64,000 bases of DNA from Dictyophora rubrovolvata (Eukaryota; Basidiomycota; Agaricomycetes; Phallales; Phallaceae), in NCBI GenBank assembly GCA_029959195.1, contig CP114125.1, positions 744,001 through 808,000 on the forward strand, in the 5' to 3' direction. Positions within the stretch are counted from its first letter, which is position 1, and every line of letters starts with the position of its first letter. Under the pieces are notes generated by a model. It saw only the letters and a program-made list of their open reading frames with translations, was not told the origin of the DNA and did no database searches. The translations under genes and the position numbers were made by a program. Shown in pieces: positions 1,170-11,368 of this stretch.

Positions 1170-1740
1170 AGTTTGAAAAAAGATCTTAACCATAGAGCAT
1201 ACTAAAAACAATAGTAGTTACAACATAACTAGCTAAATTGGTACATATTAGTAACCACAATGTTTATACCATGCATTTGCATGCTCAGCTTTTATACTCC
1301 AGACTGCTGTCAGGATATGCTAGCTTTGTCCCCTTATTTTCCTCCATTTATCTTCGGTTCTGGTTTATTTTATTCATTTCCATACTTCCCATATTTTATC
1401 CCATCTCTTGCTTTTCCCTTTCCTTCTGTATTCCCATCTTTCCCTCCAACAGGTGCTGAGCGCCCATTCCCATCAGAGCCATGGCCTAGGCCCCAGCTAA
1501 AAGTCCAGGACTGGCGCATATCTGCGCCCAGTCCATGAACCAAAGGCCGCGTATGACCTTCGCTGCTTTTCATAGTATATAGTTAGTAGCCCTAGAGGAG
1601 GGATCCCTAAGTTTGTTCTCTTAGGATCTCCTCCCTCTAGGTGAGTTAGTTAGTATTTATCCAATACAGTTACTTAGGATCCCCTCCCTCTAGTCTGAGT
1701 GAGTAGCCCTGACAACCGCTGTAAGCTTCACTATGTGCAA
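1170..1740. other. Non-coding stretch with short GGATCC-centred repeats
   Basis: No convincing gene. Three related blocks of about 20 bp, built around GGATC and CCTCCCTCTAG, lie at 1591-1610 (inverted), 1620-1640 and 1674-1694. The first two form a short hairpin. Small open frames at 1238-1573 on both strands are low complexity and probably spurious. The stretch borders the 3' end of a minus-strand repeat module and may be degraded repeat. Confidence 0.4.
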
Positions 1741-2594
1741 AAGGAAAAATAATATGCCTAGTGAAATACACAAGAAAAGAATGAGTGAGGTAGTCAATCT
1801 CCGTGGAGCGAGTCCAGGTACTGCTTAGTGTGAAATAAGGGGGGGGGGGAGGTGATGGAAACAGGAAACAACAACAAATAACAACAACCAAAAGACGGTT
1901 ACTGTTAACAAATCAAGATTGCTTGTAAGGCAAAGTACAATAATCGTGATAACTCAGATCACAAGTTTATACTCCGAAATGTATGGTCTCAGAGTTTTCC
2001 AAAGGTAAAGACGTGAGCGTAGAGATAGACAAGAGGCAAAACCAAAAACACTAAACAAAAACCACAAACTTAAACTTGAGTCAAACCAACATAGGTATTG
2101 CTGCTGTTACAGGTATTTACATGCAGTATTTATACGTTTTGGAACAATAAGAATGTTTTTGGGCTTTGAGTGGCAACACAATTAGTAATTATGAGCTGGA
2201 TTTGTAATAAGGAAAAAAAAGAAAAGCGAGTAAATAAAAAAAGGGGCATATGAGTCAGTGAGACTATACTATTATAAAGAGCGAACAAAAGAATTTCAAG
2301 GCGATGACAAAACAAAAAGAAAGAAAGGAGCGACACAAAAGAATGGATTTAGAATCAATACAAGTACAAAAGGAAAGAAAAAGGAGCAAACAAGAAAGGA
2401 AATGATGAGAATAGGAGGTCATTTTATTCATCCTTACTAATTTTCCCAAAATAGACATCACCATCGATAAGCGCTTCACAGCCTCAGATTTTCGATCTTC
2501 ATCTCCTTCCTTTAACCTCGGAATCAATGTGCATTCGCCACTGCCATATGTATCCGTGTATTTCATTGTTGAACTCTTGTTAAAGAGCTCCAAT
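1741..2594 (-). repeat. Two-ORF module, copy 0: 3' tail fragment
   Basis: The reverse complement matches the non-coding 3' part of the module at 10540-11300. It has the T-rich tract with TTTTG repeats, then the block with TCTACGCTCACGTCT and GGAGTATAAAC, and finally the block with CTCCACGGAGA at about 1795-1815. Both ORFs are missing because the fragment is cut at about 2594, where a plus-strand copy begins head to head. The 109-residue minus-strand frame at 2264-2593 lies in this tail and is probably not a gene. Confidence 0.6.
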
Positions 2595-2720
2595 TGTTGT
2601 TGTACACCAAAATCTTCCTAATAAGGAAACGTTCCGATTTTTGGTTCAAAGCAGAGTTTCAAACTACCAAAAACTTAACTGATACACCACAGCCTCTCAA
2701 AATCAAAAACGTTATGAAAA

Positions 2721-3353
2721 ATGGCTGCATTTTCATTTCACTATACATCATCAATCTCTTTGCCCATTCCAGCATCTCCCACTGAGTCATTACCCCCCTC
2801 TGATGATGAATCTATATCACCTTTTCATTTTTCACCTTCCAGTCCAAGGACATACGATTTGGATCTGCATATGACTCTTTATATCTATAGTTCCCAATAT
2901 GCGAGTCTCAACATCGACGAAGGAACGTACCTCCTGAAGTTCCCTCCACCTCTTATTATTCGTCAATGCAGAAGTTCGGATTTGGTTCACCCTGGTCTCA
3001 TGTTTGGAGAAAAGGTTTATATCAAGGAACGATTAGACTGGTTTACAATTATCAATGTTTATTCTACACTCAAATCAGCCGTTAAAGACTCGTATCGGAT
3101 TTAGTTAGTGACACAAGAAGGGTTCGAATTTACATTCCTGGTTCTAGATGTGCCAAGTCGTTGGGTTGTCATGAAAAACATGAAAACGCAAAAACATAGC
3201 CCATATAGACTGGCCAATCTTGTTCCTGTAAATCCTCAAGTGTCTTGTTTTTCACCCCATTCGCCAGAACCAATATCTCTCCCCTCTTCTCCATCCAAAC
3301 GATCCTTCCAAAAGATCCGATGTGTTTGCTCAAACCTTCTTGGACGAAATTAG
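2721..3353 (+). pseudogene. Module ORF A, copy 1, nonsense-interrupted
   Basis: Same protein as 9235-9867, starting MAAFSFHYTSSISLP, about 210 residues. A tryptophan codon TGG in copy 2 is TAG here (3102-3104), and the frame continues to the natural stop at 3353. Both ends are preserved, including the basic C-terminus with SKRSFQKIR. No known domain is visible. The protein is Ser/Pro-rich at the N-terminus and near the C-terminus, with a hydrophobic, aromatic middle. The module shows no sign of a polymerase or transposase that would explain it. Confidence 0.7.
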
Positions 3354-3458
3354 GACAAAAGGCTTGTTTAGGATAAGCGATTAGATTTGAATTTCATCTC
3401 CTTCTTTCTTTCTGGACATTTCATTAGCGCTTGAAAATTTTAGTTAACTCATATCATC

Positions 3459-4597
3459 ATGTCAGACAATAACAATACTCCTACTTCCCCTATTCCCCTT
3501 TTTCAACTCCCTTTCTTCCCTTTTGAATACCGTTCTTCTTGTCACGCTCCGCGTGCCCCAGAGTCCAAACCCGGACTATCCCGAATCCCATACTACATAC
3601 CCCATATTTCCCCTTAACTCCGAGACCCGTACTCCATCTGTACTCTATCCGTAACTCTGTATCAGACATCTTCCTTAAGGGGATGTGTATTCCGCTCGCT
3701 TAGTAATAAGGTACCTGGTTGTCATCTTAGCTTGCACTAGTCAATTCCCACTTTCCCTTATTTGTCATTATCCCCATTTACGTAGTTCCGCTCCCTCCTG
3801 TATTTAAACCCCAGCTCCCTCAGCTGTGAGTCCTTAGTCTGAATATAATCAGTTTAATCAGTTACTCTCTCGTCTCTAATCCGTCTCATACTCTTAATCC
3901 GTATTGCGTAGTTGGCTCAGACTTAACGTTTGAGTCAACTCGTACTTATCATTCATGTCGTCTTCGACGACATGGACTTGTACTCCGTCGTCGTATCACA
4001 CGTTGTCAGACTTGTATGTACTTGCGTACTTCCTCGTATTCCGAAATCGAGGGATATCGTAAGCTGGGCAAGTGGGTGCAACATATAAGTTGAAGCCAAG
4101 TCCCTCATCCCATACTTCAGTACTCTGTCTCCCATCTGACCCCGTGGTCTAGACTTCTTCGGAACTATCCGGAATAGCTTTGGGCCACCGTACGTAACAC
4201 TTCTCTCAGATTCGGACCCAACCCTAATTTCCTCTCATGACTTCGCATTTACAATACTCTTGTTTCTGAAATTGATGTCGATCCCTCCACAATGCTTCCA
4301 ATTACTCCACTGCCACTAATGGAGATTACTATTCCTTACGACGATCTGGAGATAGGATATCCACGAGCTTTAACCCTGTACAAACGAACTAACGTCAATG
4401 TCATGGACGAATCATATGAGTTTGTCGAGTTCCTTTCAACAAATCGTCAAGAAGAATCAATCTGGAGACTGGTCTTTCATCATCAATTTCAAAGTTATAC
4501 TCAGTTCTTATTCATAGACGCACCTCTATCTACCATCCCATCCCCTCCCAACTACTCTGTTGGAAATCAAACCCTCCCTTCCTATTCTGATCTCTAA
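3459..4597 (+). pseudogene. Module ORF B, copy 1, split by solo LTR
   Basis: The first 27 codons (3459-3539, MSDNNNTPTSPIPLFQ...) and the remainder (from 4205) match ORF B of copy 2 at 9973-10539. They are separated by a 660-bp LTR plus a CTTCT target duplication. A CAA codon in copy 2 is TAA at 4595-4597, removing the C-terminal basic tail, which would otherwise run to about 4702. Both lesions make this copy non-functional. Confidence 0.75.
3540..4199 (+). mobile_element. Solo LTR, family 2, inside ORF B copy 1
   Basis: A 660-bp insertion starts TGTCACGCTCCGCG and ends GTACGTAACA, with perfect target duplication CTTCT at 3535-3539 and 4200-4204. The empty site is preserved in copy 2 around 10048-10056, which confirms the boundaries. 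A TATTTAAA box near 3800 suggests plus orientation. It is unrelated in sequence to LTR family 1. The final bases resemble the short sequence at 11370-11388. Confidence 0.92.
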
Positions 4598-5281
4598 TCC
4601 AATCTTGTTCAAGATCTGATATTGTTAAGCATTGCCATAGCCATTATTATTGCGCCACAGCCACGAAGAAGAAGATCTCGTCAACAAGAACCAGATCAGT
4701 AAGAAGTTTGGGATGGTAAGGTTAAAGTTTTGGGTAAGAGGTAGTGCAAGAAGTGCCAGATGGTGATTTTGGTAAAGCTATGCTGGGAATCCGGTTTCAT
4801 TGTTTTCTTTTGATCTCTTTTTGTTTTTCTTTTGTTTCTCTTTTGTTTCAACATATTTCTCCTATTCTCCCTAACCACATATGTGATTTCTCTTTTTCTG
4901 TAATTGTATCCTCCATTGTTTTCTCCTTTTTCTTTTGTTTCTTTGTTCTCTTTTTGTTTCCTTTTGTTATCATGGCGAATGATGAGTGATCATTCCGCTT
5001 TCCTTTATGTTTCCAAATGGTATATATACTGCATGTAAATAATTGTAACAGCAGCAATCTACCGGAACGGTTGTCTCATAGTTTTGTTCAAGTTAAGTTT
5101 TAGTCAAGTCAAGTCAAGTTTTTAGTGTTTCATCTCCCGTCTATTTCTACGCTCATGTCTATTTCTTGGATTACTCCGATCAAGGCCTTGGAGTATAAAC
5201 CCAGCGATTTGTATTGTCGCTGAAGCCTTAACTAACCTTTACTGTTTATTGTCATTGTTTTGTCATCTCTGACACAGCTCA

Positions 5282-5882
5282 TGTCATGTATTTCATGATT
5301 TCCTCCCTTATCTACCTAAAAACAAGTATTTCCTTTATTCTTTTTTTAGTTCCTGCTTGCTTTAATAATCCTTTATTTGTAATGTATCTTATCTTTCAGG
5401 AACAGTCAGATGACTTAGTTCCAGGAACCCCTTTATTTTCTTATCATCTCTCTCCACTTCCCTGTCTCACTATAATTTTCCCTGATCCACTATTATTCAT
5501 TCACTTCCTTTTTAAGTAATTTCTTATCTTTCACATGATGTTTCTCTTACTAATGTTTGGAGCTATTTGTACTTGCTCAAGGTGTATAAATAGGGGCTCA
5601 TTTTTCTTGTAAATAACATATCTTGTAACTACTGTTGTGCACCAAAGTGTTTACCAATCAAATTGGTCTTTTTCCCTCTTATCTTTTTCTATTCTCAAGG
5701 ACTTAGTAATAAGTCTCTATCTATCTCTACTAATTTGAACTTAATTCTTAAGTTCAAATCTTCCTTCAAGAGTCTCACCTTCAATAACAAGACTTTTAGT
5801 TGCTGAACAATCCCTAAACAAATCCTTTTTTATATTTTATTAGGAGCTAAGTCTATTCTAAACCTAAAACAAATCCCTTACA
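5282..5882 (+). mobile_element. Solo LTR, family 1, plus orientation
   Basis: This 601-bp LTR starts TGTCATG and ends CCCTTACA, with perfect target duplication GCTCA at 5277-5281 and 5883-5887. A TATAAATAGGGG box near 5584 marks the promoter direction. It is the inverted partner of 560-1159. Both have their own different target duplications, so they are independent insertions and not the inverted ends of one element. Confidence 0.92.
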
Positions 5883-6118
5883 GCTCAACGTTTGTCCTCA
5901 TTACTCGTTACTCCAATTATCCCCCATTGACAATTTGTACCTCTCATGCACACGCTACACTCACTAGTCAACTGTTGTGGTATTGTTTGTTGTGTTTGTT
6001 TGTTGTTGCTGTTGATTCGACATTGATATACACTCCTCATCACCTGCTATCATTTATTCACTCTATTTCACATTCGCCTAAGCAGCACCAGGACCCACTC
6101 CACGGAAGACTAATGACC

Positions 6119-6634
6119 TCAAAACAAATATCTCCGTAGATATCCAATTAGACTAGCAGTGATATAAAGCTGTCTAGTTTGGATCGTTACATCGTACGGA
6201 ACTAAAGGTCTTCGCTCAAGGTACTCAGGAAGCGGTTGGGAAGTATCAACCTCTAGCGGACAGTAGTCAGGGGCAGGATGATTGTTGATCGCATTAGTGG
6301 GAGCATCCATGAAAAGAAATTCATCATGATAAAGAAGTGGTTGATGGAATATGAACTGCCAAACAGGTTGTTCGCTACGATGAAATTTTGGATTCTCTGG
6401 GAATTCCAGTTTCTCATAGGGTACCTGGTATTCTTGAATGGGGACTAGAGAATGCAGCCATAACGTACTTCTGTCTACCTCGATGTTTGTACCAGAGATG
6501 CGATAAATCCATATTGTTGATTCGAAGTTGGCATATCGTTCATCCAAAGTTATCCCTGTGAAAGGATAAAAGGGGTAAGGAAGGAAGGAAGTGGGGGCAA
6601 GTGATTCATAGCCAAGAGGTTGTACGAGGCTCAT
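6119..6634 (-). CDS. Module ORF B, divergent copy (unknown function)
   Basis: An uninterrupted 171-residue frame on the minus strand, starting MSLVQPLGYESLAP. It is a diverged homologue of ORF B at 9973-10539. Matching positions include the Pro-rich start, an IYR..GTNIEVDRST block versus VYNTLVSEIDVDPST, and QPVWQFIFHQ...FLFMDAP versus ESIWRLVFRH...FLFIDAP. The last 24 or so codons run into the 3' end of the plus-strand module copy 1 (which ends at 6190), so the natural C-terminus has been replaced. It remains open despite much divergence, while its neighbour ORF A is broken. Function unknown. Confidence 0.5.
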   Translation of the reverse strand: MSLVQPLGYESLAPTSFLPYPFYPFTGITLDERYANFESTIWIYRISGTNIEVDRSTLWLHSLVPIQEYQVPYEKLEFPENPKFHRSEQPVWQFIFHQPLLYHDEFLFMDAPTNAINNHPAPDYCPLEVDTSQPLPEYLERRPLVPYDVTIQTRQLYITASLIGYLRRYLF

Positions 6635-7613
6635 GATGGAAGAGAAGGATAAGAAAGGATGGAATTAATTTAGACTCCGAAAGAAAAGAAACAAGACAAC
6701 AAAAGAGGGGAATAAAAAAATAAAGAAGTCCTTGTTTTTCGTTTTAATTAGTCCTGATTATTCAAATGAAGTACTTCCTATAGTGTTATCTCAGATGTCT
6801 TAAATATAGCCGAACAGAATTTCTGAAGTCGATGTAGCTTGGGGACAGTAGAAACAGGAGTCGTAGGACGAAAAGAAGGTGATGAAGGTTCGGTGGGAGG
6901 ATCAAAGGTGGAGATAGGAGGTTTTGGAGTCATGGGAAATTGTGGAGTACCAGAATCGTAGAAAGGAAGGAAAAATTCAGGTTCTGGCATGTGCTGATAT
7001 CAACGACAGATCCATGAACAAGGGACATTGAATACAATGTGCCAGAATGCATGTCTGTGTTCAGCAGTAGCCCATATCCTAGTAACCGTGTCCAGTAGAC
7101 CTATGTGAATCGTGTACATATTCACTACAATGAACCATTCTTCATATCCTTCTAACCATAATCATGTTCCAAAAGAAACCTTCTTATCGTCCGCATCTGA
7201 ATACAAGATCAGATCCGAAGCTTTATGTCAACCGATAATAATGGGGTTTGGGTATAGTGGTAATAAGGTGGAGGGATTGAGGTTGAGGTGCGCATAGGAT
7301 GTGAAGTAGACGTAGTACTGAGTGTCCAAATCACAGAGATTGACATCAGGAGTAGGAGGGACAAAACGAAAACAATCAGAGTCATCGATAGAAGGAGCAT
7401 GAAGGGACGGCAGGGAACGAGAAGAGCGAATCTGGAGTGAGGACATATCTTTTGTATCAACGTTTTTGGGATAAAAAAAATGAAAAATGTTTGGACGTGG
7501 GTTTTGGGTAGTTGTGAAAGTGAATTCAAACTCTGAGGGACATATCGTGGGATTAGAGAATCTTCGGAACATTTACCCTAATTTTTGCCAAATATAGATT
7601 TTGGTGCGTGACA
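6191..7613 (-). repeat. Two-ORF module, decayed inverted copy
   Basis: Read on the minus strand it begins TGTCACGCACCAAAATC (7613 downward), the same start as the copy at 9104, followed by a diverged ORF A (7446 to 6778) and ORF B (6634 to 6119). It is joined tail to tail with copy 1 at about 6190, and its own 3' tail is missing. Divergence from the plus copies is far greater than between copies 1 and 2, so this is an older or different subfamily member. Confidence 0.65.
6778..7446 (-). pseudogene. Module ORF A, decayed copy
   Basis: The start MSSLQIRSSRSLPS at 7446 aligns with MAAFSFHYTSSISLP of ORF A, and LCDLDTQYYVYFTSYAHLNL aligns with YDLDLHTTLYIYSSQYASLN. The frame stops at about 7228. 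Similarity continues in shifted frames (EEWFIVVNMYT versus LDWFTIINVYS, and FNVPCSWIC versus LDVPSRWVV) and resumes in the last segment (6990-6778) with LHRLQKFCSAIFK. Several stops and frameshifts make it a pseudogene. Confidence 0.6.
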
Positions 7614-7668
7614 CCGCATCATGTAAATGCATATATATTTTACCCTCGTCATCTCCCAGCACTGCAAG

Positions 7669-8731
7669 CTATATGAGATTGCCATTGTACTGGATGATAT
7701 TCTTGACATATGAAAATACAAGCTCGATTGGGTTGTAGTCAGGGGAATATGGAGGAAGGAATTCAACCTTTATACCACTAAAGAATAGACTTTAGATTAC
7801 TCAGAAGCTTTGGAATAAACTCACCAGCTTGTGATCATATCCAAAACCTCTTGACATTTGTGGATATGGTAATTATCCATCACAAGAACTGAATTTGGAT
7901 GTGGATATGGTTGCATTTGATCAAGAAGTCCTTCAATGAATGTGGCAAAGCTTGCAGTGTTGAATGATCCCTTGATGATATTGACATGTAGAATGCTGGA
8001 GATTGATAGTGCGGGAAGAATGGAATATCTATTTTTTTCTAGTAATTCACATATAAAATAATAATAAAGCACAATACCTTTTTCCTCTAACAAAAAAGCT
8101 TTTGCGCACAGCCTTCTCACCAGAAATAACCTAGGCACGGTTCCAAAACATGGTGCAACGATCACATGCACTCTCATCCACAAAAACAAGTTGTTCAGGG
8201 GCATAGTTTGAAATCCAAAGGACATATTCAGCACATTGTTCCTCAGAGTGTTCAAGTGCAACATTAGTGATCTAGATTCAGTTATTGTGTGACAAACTGA
8301 TGTAATGAACAAGCAAACACTTACTTTCTTCATTGTAAACCCACTGCACTCCAGAGTTCTCCATATTGTCAACTGAGAGGCTTGTTTCCCACATATCTGT
8401 TCCAGCTCCATTTATAGCTCATCCAAAAAAACATCATTTGTCTGCTCAATACTTCCATGCAGAAACTACAAAACATTTGTGAAAACAACCACTAAACAAA
8501 GTAAAGAACACTCACATTAATGTCCTCACCATCAAGAAGACGTTTCCGGCCTCGTTTTGCACCTGCCACCTGATTTATGGGGTTCCCAGTCAAGAAATAG
8601 TATTCCGACAATGTGTTGATTGTCTTTACACTAAGATTGGTCAAAGCGGAAACTTTGAGTGGTGAGAAATGTTTGAGAAGTTGGATAACAGTCCAGGCAT
8701 GATCATCTGAGACTTTTTGGCCTTGTCTCAT
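7669..8731 (-). pseudogene. Tc1/mariner-like (DDE_3 type) transposase, dead
   Basis: On the minus strand the N-terminal part (8731-8520) is helix-turn-helix-like and ends with the basic segment AKRGRKRLLDGEDIN. The catalytic core follows: LVFVDESACDR (first Asp), NSVLVMDNYHIHK (second Asp) and PPYSPDYNPIELVF (last acidic residues), ending at 7669. Intron-like GT...AG gaps of about 50 nt interrupt it. In-frame stops occur after VFLDEL and after MFWNRA, so it is inactive. The strand reading AGGGTGTAAAAAACCCC from about 8940 looks like one terminal repeat, but I could not find its partner. Confidence 0.75.
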
Positions 8732-9103
8732 GCCAGAAAACTCAGGTCAACGGGGGCGAAGGTGTGGATAAGGATGTGGCGCGAGATAAAGGAGTGGAGT
8801 CTGAATTTCAGTGCTTCATTGGATTGGGAGCACTTGCTGGCTAGCTACAATACCATGGAAAAATTGATATATATCTTAGTTAAGCATTGTGATCTCATTC
8901 AGAGCAAGGGTAACAATTTATTGGGGTTTTTTACACCCTAATACTTTCAGGAACAAGGGCCTCAATAATGACATTCAAAAAAAAAGACTCTTTTTACTCT
9001 GATTTATGTAAGTAAAATCAAGTATTCTATAAATAAAAATTTTTGCACTTTATTCAGTGTAATTATCTACCATATTTGTGGAGATACAAATTTTTTTGTT
9101 GAG
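8732..9103. other. Flank of dead transposon, no gene
   Basis: AT-rich sequence between the transposase start and the next module copy. It includes the possible terminal repeat ending TTACACCCTA at about 8941. The plus-strand frame 8717-8941 is a shadow. Nothing else is supportable. Confidence 0.4.
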
Positions 9104-9234
9104 TGTCACGCTGTCGCGCACCAAAATCTTCCTAATAAGGAAACGTTCTGAATTTTGGTTCAAAGTGGAGTTTCAAACTACCAAAAACTTAACCAATACA
9201 CCACAGCCTCTTGAAATCAAAACCCTTACAAAAA

Positions 9235-9867
9235 ATGGCTGCATTTTCATTTCACTATACATCATCAATTTCTTTGCCCATTCCAGCATCTCCCACTGAG
9301 TCATTACCCCCCTCCAATGATGAATCTATATCACCTTTTCGTTTTTCGCCTTCCAGTCCAAGGACATACGATTTGGATCTGCATACGACTCTTTATATCT
9401 ATAGTTCCCAATATGCGAGTCTCAACATCGACGAAGAAACGTACCTCCCGAAGTTCCCTCCACCTCTTATTATTCGTCAATGCAGAAGTTCGGATTTGGT
9501 TCACCCCGGTCTCATGTTTGGAGAAAAGGTTTATATCGAGGAACGATTAGACTGGTTTACAATTATTAACGTTTATTCTACACCCGAATCAGCCATTAAA
9601 GACTCATATCGGATTTGGTTAGTGACACAAGAAGGGTTCGAATTTACATTCCTGGTTCTAGATGTGCCAAGTCGTTGGGTTGTCATGAAAAACATAAAAA
9701 CACAAAAACATAGCCCATATAGACCAGCCAATCTTGTTCCTGTAGATCCTCAAATGTCTTGCTTTTCACCCCATTCGCCAGAACCAATATCTCTCCCCTC
9801 TTCTCCATCCAAACGATCCTTCCAAAAGATCCGACGTGTTTGCTCAAACCTTCTTGGACGAAATTAA
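9235..9867 (+). CDS. Module ORF A protein (unknown function)
   Basis: An intact frame of 210 residues from MAAFSFHYTSS. The chosen ATG is the one shared with copy 1; the in-frame ATG 24 bases upstream is not. Residues about 10-50 are Ser/Pro-rich, followed by RTYDLDLHTTLYIYSSQYA, LNIDEETYLPKFPPPLIIR, a region rich in aromatic and aliphatic residues (LDWFTIINVY, FEFTFLVLDVPSRWVV), a second Ser/Pro-rich stretch and a basic end (SKRSFQKIRRVCSNLLGR). The block YIYSSQYASLNIDEETYLP resembles a block in ORF B next door, suggesting the two are relatives. I recognise no domain. It is repeated in at least three places in this window. Confidence 0.6.
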   Translation: MAAFSFHYTSSISLPIPASPTESLPPSNDESISPFRFSPSSPRTYDLDLHTTLYIYSSQYASLNIDEETYLPKFPPPLIIRQCRSSDLVHPGLMFGEKVYIEERLDWFTIINVYSTPESAIKDSYRIWLVTQEGFEFTFLVLDVPSRWVVMKNIKTQKHSPYRPANLVPVDPQMSCFSPHSPEPISLPSSPSKRSFQKIRRVCSNLLGRN

Positions 9868-9972
9868 GACAAAAGGCTTGATTAGGATAAGCGATTAGAT
9901 TTGTATTTCATCTCCTTCTTTCTTTCTGGACATTTCATTAGCGCTTAAAAATTTTAGTTAACTCATATCATC

Positions 9973-10539
9973 ATGTCAGACAATAACGATACTCCTACTT
10001 CCCCTATTCCCCTTTTTCAACTCCCTTTCTTCCCTTTTGAATATCGTTCTTCTCTCAGATTCGGACCCAACTCTAATTTCCTCTCACGACTTCGCGTTTA
10101 CAATACTCTTGTTTCTGAAATTGATGTCGACCCCTCCACAATGCTTCCGATTACTCCACAGCCACTAATGGAGATTACTATTCCTTATGACGATCTGGAG
10201 ATAGGATATCCACGAGCTTTAACCCTGTATGAACGAACCAACGTCAATGTCATGGACGAATCGTATGAGTTTGTCGAGTTCCTTTCAACAAATCGTCAAG
10301 AAGAATCAATCTGGAGACTGGTCTTTCGTCATCAATTTCGAAGTTATACTCAATTCTTATTCATAGACGCACCCCTATCTGCCATCCCATCCCCTCCCGA
10401 CTACTCTGTTGGAAATCAAACCCTCCCTTCCTATTCCGATCTCCAATCCAATCTCGTTCAAGATCTGGTATTGTTAAGCGTTGCCATAGCCATTATTATT
10501 GCGCCACAGCCACGAAGAAGAAGATCTCGTCAACAATAA
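9973..10539 (+). CDS. Module ORF B protein (unknown function)
   Basis: An intact frame of 188 residues starting MSDNNDTPTSPIPLF, 105 bp after ORF A on the same strand. It has a Pro/Phe-rich N-terminus, then a block SRLRVYNTLVSEIDVDPST resembling ORF A, then SIWRLVFRHQF...FLFIDAPLSAIPSPPDYS, a hydrophobic stretch VLLSVAIAIIIAPQP near the C-terminus that could be a short membrane segment, and a basic end PRRRRSRQQ. No catalytic motif is recognised. The conservation of ORF order and spacing in three copies argues the pair travels together. Confidence 0.6.
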   Translation: MSDNNDTPTSPIPLFQLPFFPFEYRSSLRFGPNSNFLSRLRVYNTLVSEIDVDPSTMLPITPQPLMEITIPYDDLEIGYPRALTLYERTNVNVMDESYEFVEFLSTNRQEESIWRLVFRHQFRSYTQFLFIDAPLSAIPSPPDYSVGNQTLPSYSDLQSNLVQDLVLLSVAIAIIIAPQPRRRRSRQQ

Positions 10540-11368
10540 CCAGATCAGTAAGAAGTTTGGGATGGTAAGATTATAGTTTTGGGTAAGAGGTAGCGCGAGA
10601 AGTGCCAGATGGTGATTTTGGTAAAGCTATGCTGGGAATCCGGTTTCATCGTCTTCTTTTGATCTCTTTTTGTTTCTCTTTTTGTTTCAACATATTTCTC
10701 CTATTCCCCCTAACCACATATGCGATTCCCCTTTTTCTGTAATTGTATCCTCCATCGTTTTCTCCTTTTTCTTTTGTTTCTTTGTTCTCTTTTTGTTTCC
10801 TTTTGTTATCATGGCGAATGATGAGTGATCATTCTGCTTTCCTTTATGTTTCCAAATGGTATATATACTGCATGTAAATAATTGTAACAGCAGCAATCTA
10901 CCGGAACGGTTGTCTCAAGTTTTAGTTCAGTTTAAGTCAAGTTCAAGTCAAGTTTCGTCTCTAGTCTATTTCTACGCTCACGTCTATTTCTTTGGATTAC
11001 TCTGAGTGAGGCCTTGGAGTATAAACTCAACGATTTGTATTGTCGTTGAAGCCTTACTAACTTTAAAACAGATTATCATCGCTGTATTATCGACGGCGTA
11101 TTGACTCACCATTTTATCGCAACTCACATTTATCGTCTCCCTCACACACACACGATCTTAGGATCATCATTTTTTTTTGTTGTTGTTGGTTTTATATCGA
11201 CGCACACACACTCACTAAATATCATATTATTCCCCCACCCTCCTCCTTACGAAATCAGCACCAGGACCCGCTCCACGGAGACTAGACGGCCTCAAACAAA
11301 ATATCTTCGTAGTTTTTCCGATTGTATATATAGCTACGACATTTAGCTATTATCTTCGGATCGTTACA

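Follow-up and report, generated by a model that had tools for sequence, protein, structure and literature searches.

What kind of element carries two conserved proteins, recurs in both orientations and contains no visible mobilisation enzyme? The question is raised by the Dictyophora rubrovolvata genome (28.2 Mb in 11 contigs, labelled C1, C2 and so on) in a stretch of 64,000 bases, C9:744001-808000, hereafter the window. Near its start a module with two open reading frames (ORFs), A followed by B, occurs repeatedly, and an earlier note had proposed it as a stand-alone, undescribed system. The module is a genuine dispersed mobile element resembling the long terminal repeat (LTR) of a retrotransposon, and the copies examined stand alone. 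The modules are probably solo LTRs of Ty3-like retrotransposons, with A and B encoded in the unique 3′ region (U3).

A dispersed unit with LTR-like ends

The 2265-base stretch regarded in the earlier note as the best copy was used as a query and gave 41 genome matches (40 of 196 first-look candidates were scored). Of these, 37 are near full-length at 95-100% identity, the others partial. The comparison of copies at unrelated places puts the true ends at TGTCGCGCACC... and ...GATCGTTACA, window 9112-11368. The bounds given before, 9104-11368, are corrected accordingly, as the first 8 bases belong to the flank. Units are about 2.2-2.4 kb long and have TGT...ACA ends. Three families, F1, F2 and F3, can be distinguished, and the 5′ terminus TGTCGCGCACCAAAAYCT is common to them, mutated copies apart.

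That the module is repeated throughout the genome is confirmed by searches with its termini, allowing up to three mismatches. The F1-type 5′ end occurs 76 times, with hits on every one of the 11 contigs, and the F1/F2-type 3′ end 105 times (100 of these listed), while reversed-pattern controls gave 0 matches for both. Among the ends listed, 52 of the 76 F1 starts are paired with an end 2250-2294 bases away. The F3 unit measures about 2.36 kb, and 23 of 58 matches, among those listed, span nearly the whole of it. The reference copy in the window, F1 copy 2, is organised as follows.

9112-11368, plus strand: F1 copy 2, a full unit measuring 2257 bp, with TGT...ACA ends (boundaries from copies elsewhere)
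9112-9129, plus strand: 18-bp 5′ terminus TGTCGCGCACCAAAATCT, near-identical across F1, F2 and F3
9235-9867, plus strand: ORF A, 210 amino acids (aa), open
9973-10539, plus strand: ORF B, 188 aa, open, with a C-terminal hydrophobic segment and a basic tail (by eye)
10540-10849, plus strand: T/C-rich stretch 5′ of the TATA-like block, putative promoter region (read by eye)
10850-11368, plus strand: 3′ segment resembling the repeated and unique 5′ regions (R-U5) of an LTR, swapped between families
10860-10867, plus strand: TATA-like TATATATA within the block GTATAWATACTGYATGTAAATA..TGTAACAGCAGCAAT common to F1, F2 and F3, putative core promoter

Target sites

Target sites were analysed for 78 complete copies (54 F1, 3 F2 and 21 F3). 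Labels such as L009 or L036 denote genomic loci fetched around copies; the F3 copy L055/L056, whose start is two bases short, and copies longer than 2900 bp, e.g., L034, were left out of this set. An exact 4-bp duplication flanks 32 of the 78 copies, compared with a mean of 3.6 and a maximum of 10 under shuffled pairing. When a C/T or G/A change is allowed at the central CG, the number of matches rises to 66 of 78 (shuffled mean 6.8, maximum 15). In no case (0/78) does the exact duplication extend to 5 bp. The target word is NCGN, with CG being central in 105 of 156 flanks, as against 8, 1, 2 and 2 of 156 at control offsets of 10, 20, 30 and 40. CCGG, CCGT and ACGG together account for 13 of the 32 exact duplications, another 17 fit NCGN with different words, and two are decayed; CCGG is the commonest, with seven cases.

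The inversion between the two ends comprises, by eye, TGT plus scattered positions only. TG...CA ends with a short inverted repeat and a 4-bp target duplication are features of LTRs, and both are present here. The 5′ ends also conform to the TGTNR pattern that is known from Ty3 LTRs, according to PMC2836005. At L093/L094 and L099/L100, F1 inserted independently into one position of a different repeat, CATCAGAGCCATGGCCTAGGCC, and similar sequence is present near window 1470-1510.

Exchange at the TATA-like block

One copy per family was aligned and identity was compared in windows along the unit. Upstream of the TATA-like block near 10850, the identity between F1 and F2 is 0.29-0.78, mostly 0.3-0.65. 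From this block to the end it is 0.88-0.98, while F3 stays different. The swapped 3′ segment thus comprises the last ~520 bp and begins at the TATA-like block, which coincides with the exchange point in the sequence comparison and has a predicted promoter role. The copy at L036 (380-2780, minus strand) resembles F3 as far as window position 10842, with identities of 0.53-0.93, and beyond that point is closer to F1 and F2 (0.62-0.95 to F1). It is a natural chimera of an F3-like coding part and an F1/F2-type 3′ segment. A further copy, C2:2498781-2501200, looks like a second F3 and F1-F2 chimera.

Comparison of 44 segments points in the same direction. The 3′ segment of the F2 copy L040 is 93.7% identical to that of copy 2, while ORF A is 47% identical. 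Four diverged F1 copies, with ORF A at 78-92% identity to copy 2, have 3′ segments of 81.5-90.8% identity, i.e. less close than the segment of L040. As the segments of L040 and L036 depart from the kinship of their coding parts, the two halves of the unit differ in history and are joined at one fixed point. This point would correspond to the boundary between U3 and R-U5, with reassortment taking place at R. During LTR replication, strand transfer at the start of R between different RNAs yields products of this kind. A structured RNA was considered and rejected, as no Rfam match was obtained and the fold of 10888-11368 has a z of 0.44.

ORFs A and B

Both frames of copy 2 are intact, as had been reported, and the order of A followed by B recurs in modules of both orientations. 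It is kept in families that are about 30-50% identical in protein. The genome contains at least 151 matches related to ORF A and at least 150 related to ORF B. F1 proteins are mostly 80-100% identical to those of copy 2, and some degenerate copies range from 59 to 78%. Relative to ORF A of F1 copy 2, the F2 proteins of the same genome are about 40-50% identical and the F3 proteins about 32-37%. Taking at least 190 codons for A and at least 170 for B as open, both ORFs are open in 22 copies of the fetched loci (19 F1 and three F3). The same loci contain 35 F1 copies of 2240-2300 bp.

Transitions account for a median of 90% of pairwise differences among these 35 copies; therefore, copies decay mainly via transitions after insertion. 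Pooled ratios of nonsynonymous to synonymous change (dN/dS), taken without a neutral control, are 0.36 for F1 A, 0.50 for F1 B, 0.45 for F3 A and 0.69 for F3 B. A neutral simulation using the observed spectrum and CpG share (400 simulations) gave mean dN/dS values of 0.60-0.87, not 1. Seven pairs, picked after the pooled ratios had been seen and assessed with no correction for seven tests, were compared with it. The three pairs with the most changes show low values of 0.25-0.35, namely ORF A of copy 2 and L031 (0.25; 2 of 400 simulations as low), ORF B of copy 2 and L035 (0.32; 4 of 400) and F3 ORF A of L049 and L050 (0.35; 2 of 400). This fits selection in active lineages, followed by neutral decay of individual copies.

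Neither ORF has a match beyond chance in Pfam, NCBIfam or PDB sequences, where ORF B gave just two chance-level PDB matches (E 0.45 and 0.75), and no reverse transcriptase, integrase or other known domain was found in A or B. A match to a known retroelement family, which the earlier note had named as an outcome against its proposal, is absent from the libraries searched. The description in that note of a repeat with two conserved proteins, here without a family in these libraries, and no mobilisation enzyme found inside is supported. A search for relatives of ORF A (the only query) among other genome contigs and viral contigs led nowhere. Predicted structures are poor, with a mean predicted local distance difference test (pLDDT) score of 32 for A and 47 for B. 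Support for A and B being paralogues is weak, with a BLASTP E of 0.001 and an hhalign probability of 17.5%.

Flanks, integrases and neighbouring units

For the search for an internal region, 98 distinct F1/F2-type 3′ flanks were collected from the 100 listed ends and from extra ones in fetched loci. NCGN stands at the start of 53 flanks, NTGN or NCAN at the start of 41, and other words at the start of four; the same three words occur in 10-24 of 98 flanks at six control offsets. In seven pairs, the two flanks resemble each other across their first 40 bases, which is taken to mean that both insertions hit one repeat. Genes of Ty3 type are present in the genome: rve gave 69 matches, 46 of them above the cut-off, and H2C2 gave 61, with several in frames of more than 1000 aa. 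Only two of the 69 integrases are bracketed within 9 kb by units on the same strand, and neither is arranged as in an LTR element.

Neighbouring units were also considered as LTR pairs and rejected. F1 starts on the same strand form eight pairs no more than 15 kb apart. In six of these at least one member has its own matching duplication, and the remaining two, both on C1, are mirror images of each other that were partly seen. C1 carries a large inverted duplication, with L029 (C1:875538) mirrored at C1:900266 and starts 10513 bases apart on both arms. Among F3 units, disregarding pieces of one copy, same-strand neighbours occur on C8 (5.4 kb) and C3 (10.5 kb), and in each case a decayed duplication of its own flanks the complete member. 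The idea that F3 belongs to a larger element comprising A, B and an integrase was likewise dismissed: the integrase fragments beside the F3 copies L049 and L050 are read, by eye and from ORFs on both sides, as Ty3 pol hit by insertion of a unit. Pairs are rare in an LTR of another family as well. This 660-bp LTR occurs at 49 places. Among the 40 that exceed 500 bases, no two on the same strand lie within 15 kb of each other; including fragments yields one same-strand pair on C1, 9.6-10.5 kb apart, plus its mirror image. Therefore, missing pairs are not special to the F1, F2 and F3 units.

Two inverted neighbour pairs of F1 (L009 858-3117 and 7429-9690; L021 and L022) are 99.96% identical despite differing flanks. 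Other F1 pairs reach 99.2% at most, and the near-identical pairs probably result from gene conversion between the inverted copies.

Nested elements in the window

The earlier note had counted four copies of one module within 10 kb. Three elements are present instead, namely two F1 copies on the plus strand and one diverged relative, F3, on the minus strand. The stretch at 1741 is the 3′ half of F3 and not a further F1 copy. Besides copy 2, the following features were assigned.

2598-6191, plus strand: F1 copy 1 (interrupted), with a TCGT duplication at 6192-6195 that has decayed to TTGT at 2594-2597
3540-4199, plus strand: 660-bp solo LTR of the other family inside F1 copy 1, duplication CTTCT
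5240-6079, unstranded: part of F1 copy 1 not alignable to copy 2, containing a 541-bp repeat at 5282-5822
1720-7613, minus strand: F3 element (3′ part 1720-2597, 5′ part 6192-7613), divided by F1 copy 1
7003-7572, minus strand: F3 ORF A, in pieces 7231-7572 and 7003-7161
6191-6634, minus strand: first part of F3 ORF B, truncated by the F1 insertion

F1 copy 1 inserted into F3. When its flanks are rejoined, they form a 38-bp site with two mismatches to the intact F3 copy L052. F3 itself is bordered by the duplication GCGG (minus-strand reading) at 1716-1719 and 7614-7617. The flanks of F1 copy 2 are TGTCACGC and CCGGACC, with the 4-bp words ACGC and CCGG, and are similar to the termini of the 660-bp LTR. 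As these flanks differ and no matching duplication is present, copy 2 probably arose by recombination of two F1 insertions.

Two other features were noted in this region. A DDE_3 transposase remnant, presumably of Tc1/mariner type, lies at 7821-8411 on the minus strand (Pfam E 1.9e-7), within the span but outside the modules. An inverted 541-bp pair at 619-1159 and 5282-5822 is 95% alike, with the second partner located inside F1 copy 1.

Favoured explanation and alternatives

The LTR nature of the unit is well supported by its ends, its duplications and the exchange point. TGT...ACA ends, 4-bp duplications, a promoter-like block ~500 bp from the 3′ end and the 520-bp exchange are LTR traits, and the proposal of a stand-alone undescribed system is set aside on this account. 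Beyond this, we infer a former internal region, an RNA intermediate, strand transfer, the type of integrase and the roles of A and B. U3 would be the first ~1.75 kb, coding for A and B, and R-U5 the last ~520 bp from the TATA block. The genomic RNA of an active element would have the order R-U5-primer site-gag/pol-U3(A,B)-R, placing A and B near its 3′ end, from where reverse transcription would copy them into both LTRs. Where RNAs of different families are packaged together, strong-stop transfer of the minus strand at R would join the U3 of one family, along with its A and B, to the R-U5 of another. A Ty3-type integrase would then make cuts staggered by 4 bp at NCGN and insert the DNA there, and recombination of the two long LTRs would delete the internal region and leave single units. 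Because the unit shows LTR features, the mobilisation enzyme is expected elsewhere, either in a lost internal region or among Ty3-type integrases acting in trans. A and B would probably be accessory proteins aiding the element while it is active; at a guess, they could be particle, silencing-escape or regulatory factors.

Several points weigh against solo LTRs of this kind. No full-length element was found, none of the 98 F1/F2-type 3′ flanks enters a shared internal region, and these flanks reveal neither a primer-binding site nor a group-wide start sequence. None of the 69 integrase (rve) matches lies between a matched pair of units. If the solo units were born by recombination, the lack of a full-length survivor is surprising among copies this similar (median identity 98.6% in 19 copies of 2250-2258 bp, picked by length). 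Matching duplications are missing in 12 of 78 copies, and L034, which was too long for that count, is flanked by ATGT and GCGA. The swap at the TATA block may be ordinary recombination in a short conserved block, and the segment of the second F2 copy, L029, is 88.5% identical to that of copy 2, within the range of diverged F1 copies. Regarding selection on A and B, the other four of the seven pairs (0.34, 0.57, 0.66 and 0.79) are not clearly off neutral, and pairwise dN/dS of F3 B spans 0.45-1.41.

The alternative with some claim to attention, though a doubtful one, is that the 2.3-kb unit is itself mobile as a non-autonomous element that never had an internal region, with LTR-like ends, a Ty3- or Ginger1-type integrase supplied in trans, and A and B as helpers or cargo. 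The single state of the complete copies examined, most of them with their own duplication (66/78), and the uniform lack of a shared sequence beyond their 3′ ends (0/98) would suit it, as would the many Ty3-type integrase genes in the genome, several of which have long open frames. Ginger1 DNA transposons offer a comparison, since in PMC2836005 they are described with TGTNR ends and 4-bp duplications of CCGG (75%) or CCGT/ACGG (24%), and CCGG is the commonest exact duplication here. However, the same source gives Ginger1 terminal inverted repeats of 40-270 bp, far from the TGT and scattered positions of the present units. Nor does a single unit moved in trans account for the swap at an outward-facing TATA block, and the same 5′ terminus with another continuation gave 0 matches in a search covering continuations with A or G as the second base. 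A related arrangement is rather unlikely, namely a single LTR-like unit without internal region that provides A and B itself, relies on a Ty3-type integrase (perhaps also a reverse transcriptase) acting in trans and reassorts its coding and regulatory halves at the promoter.

It is highly improbable that A and B themselves mobilise the unit, which would then be a transposon of a new type. They are the sole conserved genes seen in the unit, occur together in three families without a known domain and show purifying selection in some pairs, but no catalytic-looking pattern was noticed by eye among the invariant residues of their alignments, and duplications and ends of the integrase kind are already explained by known enzymes. 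The presence of several copies within 10 kb could suggest a local segmental duplication, raised in the earlier note, or an ordinary host gene family. With 5′ ends on all 11 contigs, sharp ends, duplications at unrelated sites and one copy inside another, segmental duplication is ruled out and this explanation as a whole is almost certainly wrong.

To return to solo LTRs with A and B in U3, proteins encoded inside LTRs are, to our knowledge, rare and known mainly from animal retroviruses. The retention of A and B across families that are ~30-50% identical suggests a real function, e.g., escape from silencing, in a genome where copies decay mainly by transitions. If U3 and R-U5 have indeed been swapped at a single fixed point, the standing copies would document strand transfer between retroelement families in nature. 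The absence of an internal region at the examined ends frames the question as one of a lost partner versus a unit moving alone.

Comparison with known systems

Solo LTRs of Ty3/Gypsy elements (Metaviridae) share with these units the TGT...ACA ends fitting TGTNR, the 4-bp duplication, the occurrence as single units and a promoter-like block that faces outwards and precedes ~500 bp of R-U5-like sequence. The present units differ in being long, in encoding two conserved proteins in the putative U3 and in having CG at the centre of the target. Unlike for Ty3/Gypsy elements, no full-length relative was found in the genome: the flank checks and the 69-integrase checks gave no complete LTR element with direct LTRs, gag-pol, a primer-binding site and a polypurine tract. 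Terminal-repeat retrotransposons in miniature (TRIM) are minimal LTR elements that are moved in trans and have a small core framed by two short LTRs. The present elements, by contrast, are single long units with two ORFs each and are not arranged as two LTRs. The sag protein of mouse mammary tumour virus and other U3-encoded retroviral proteins are coded in U3, and so are present in each LTR. A and B would likewise be U3-coded and carried by every LTR, although here there are two proteins, the genome is fungal and the likeness considered is one of layout. Searches of open-licence PubMed Central papers gave no description of LTR-encoded protein pairs in fungi.

Ginger1, as described in PMC2836005, encodes an integrase-like transposase of its own and has long inverted repeats; neither was found in the unit. 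The NCGN target of the units is also broader than the CCGG/CCGT preference given there for Ginger1. LTR retrotransposons of bdelloid rotifers carry an extra ORF downstream of pol, the benefit of which is unclear, and have left many solo LTRs, as described in PMC5408684. In the units presented here, both ORFs lie inside the repeated unit itself instead of downstream of pol.

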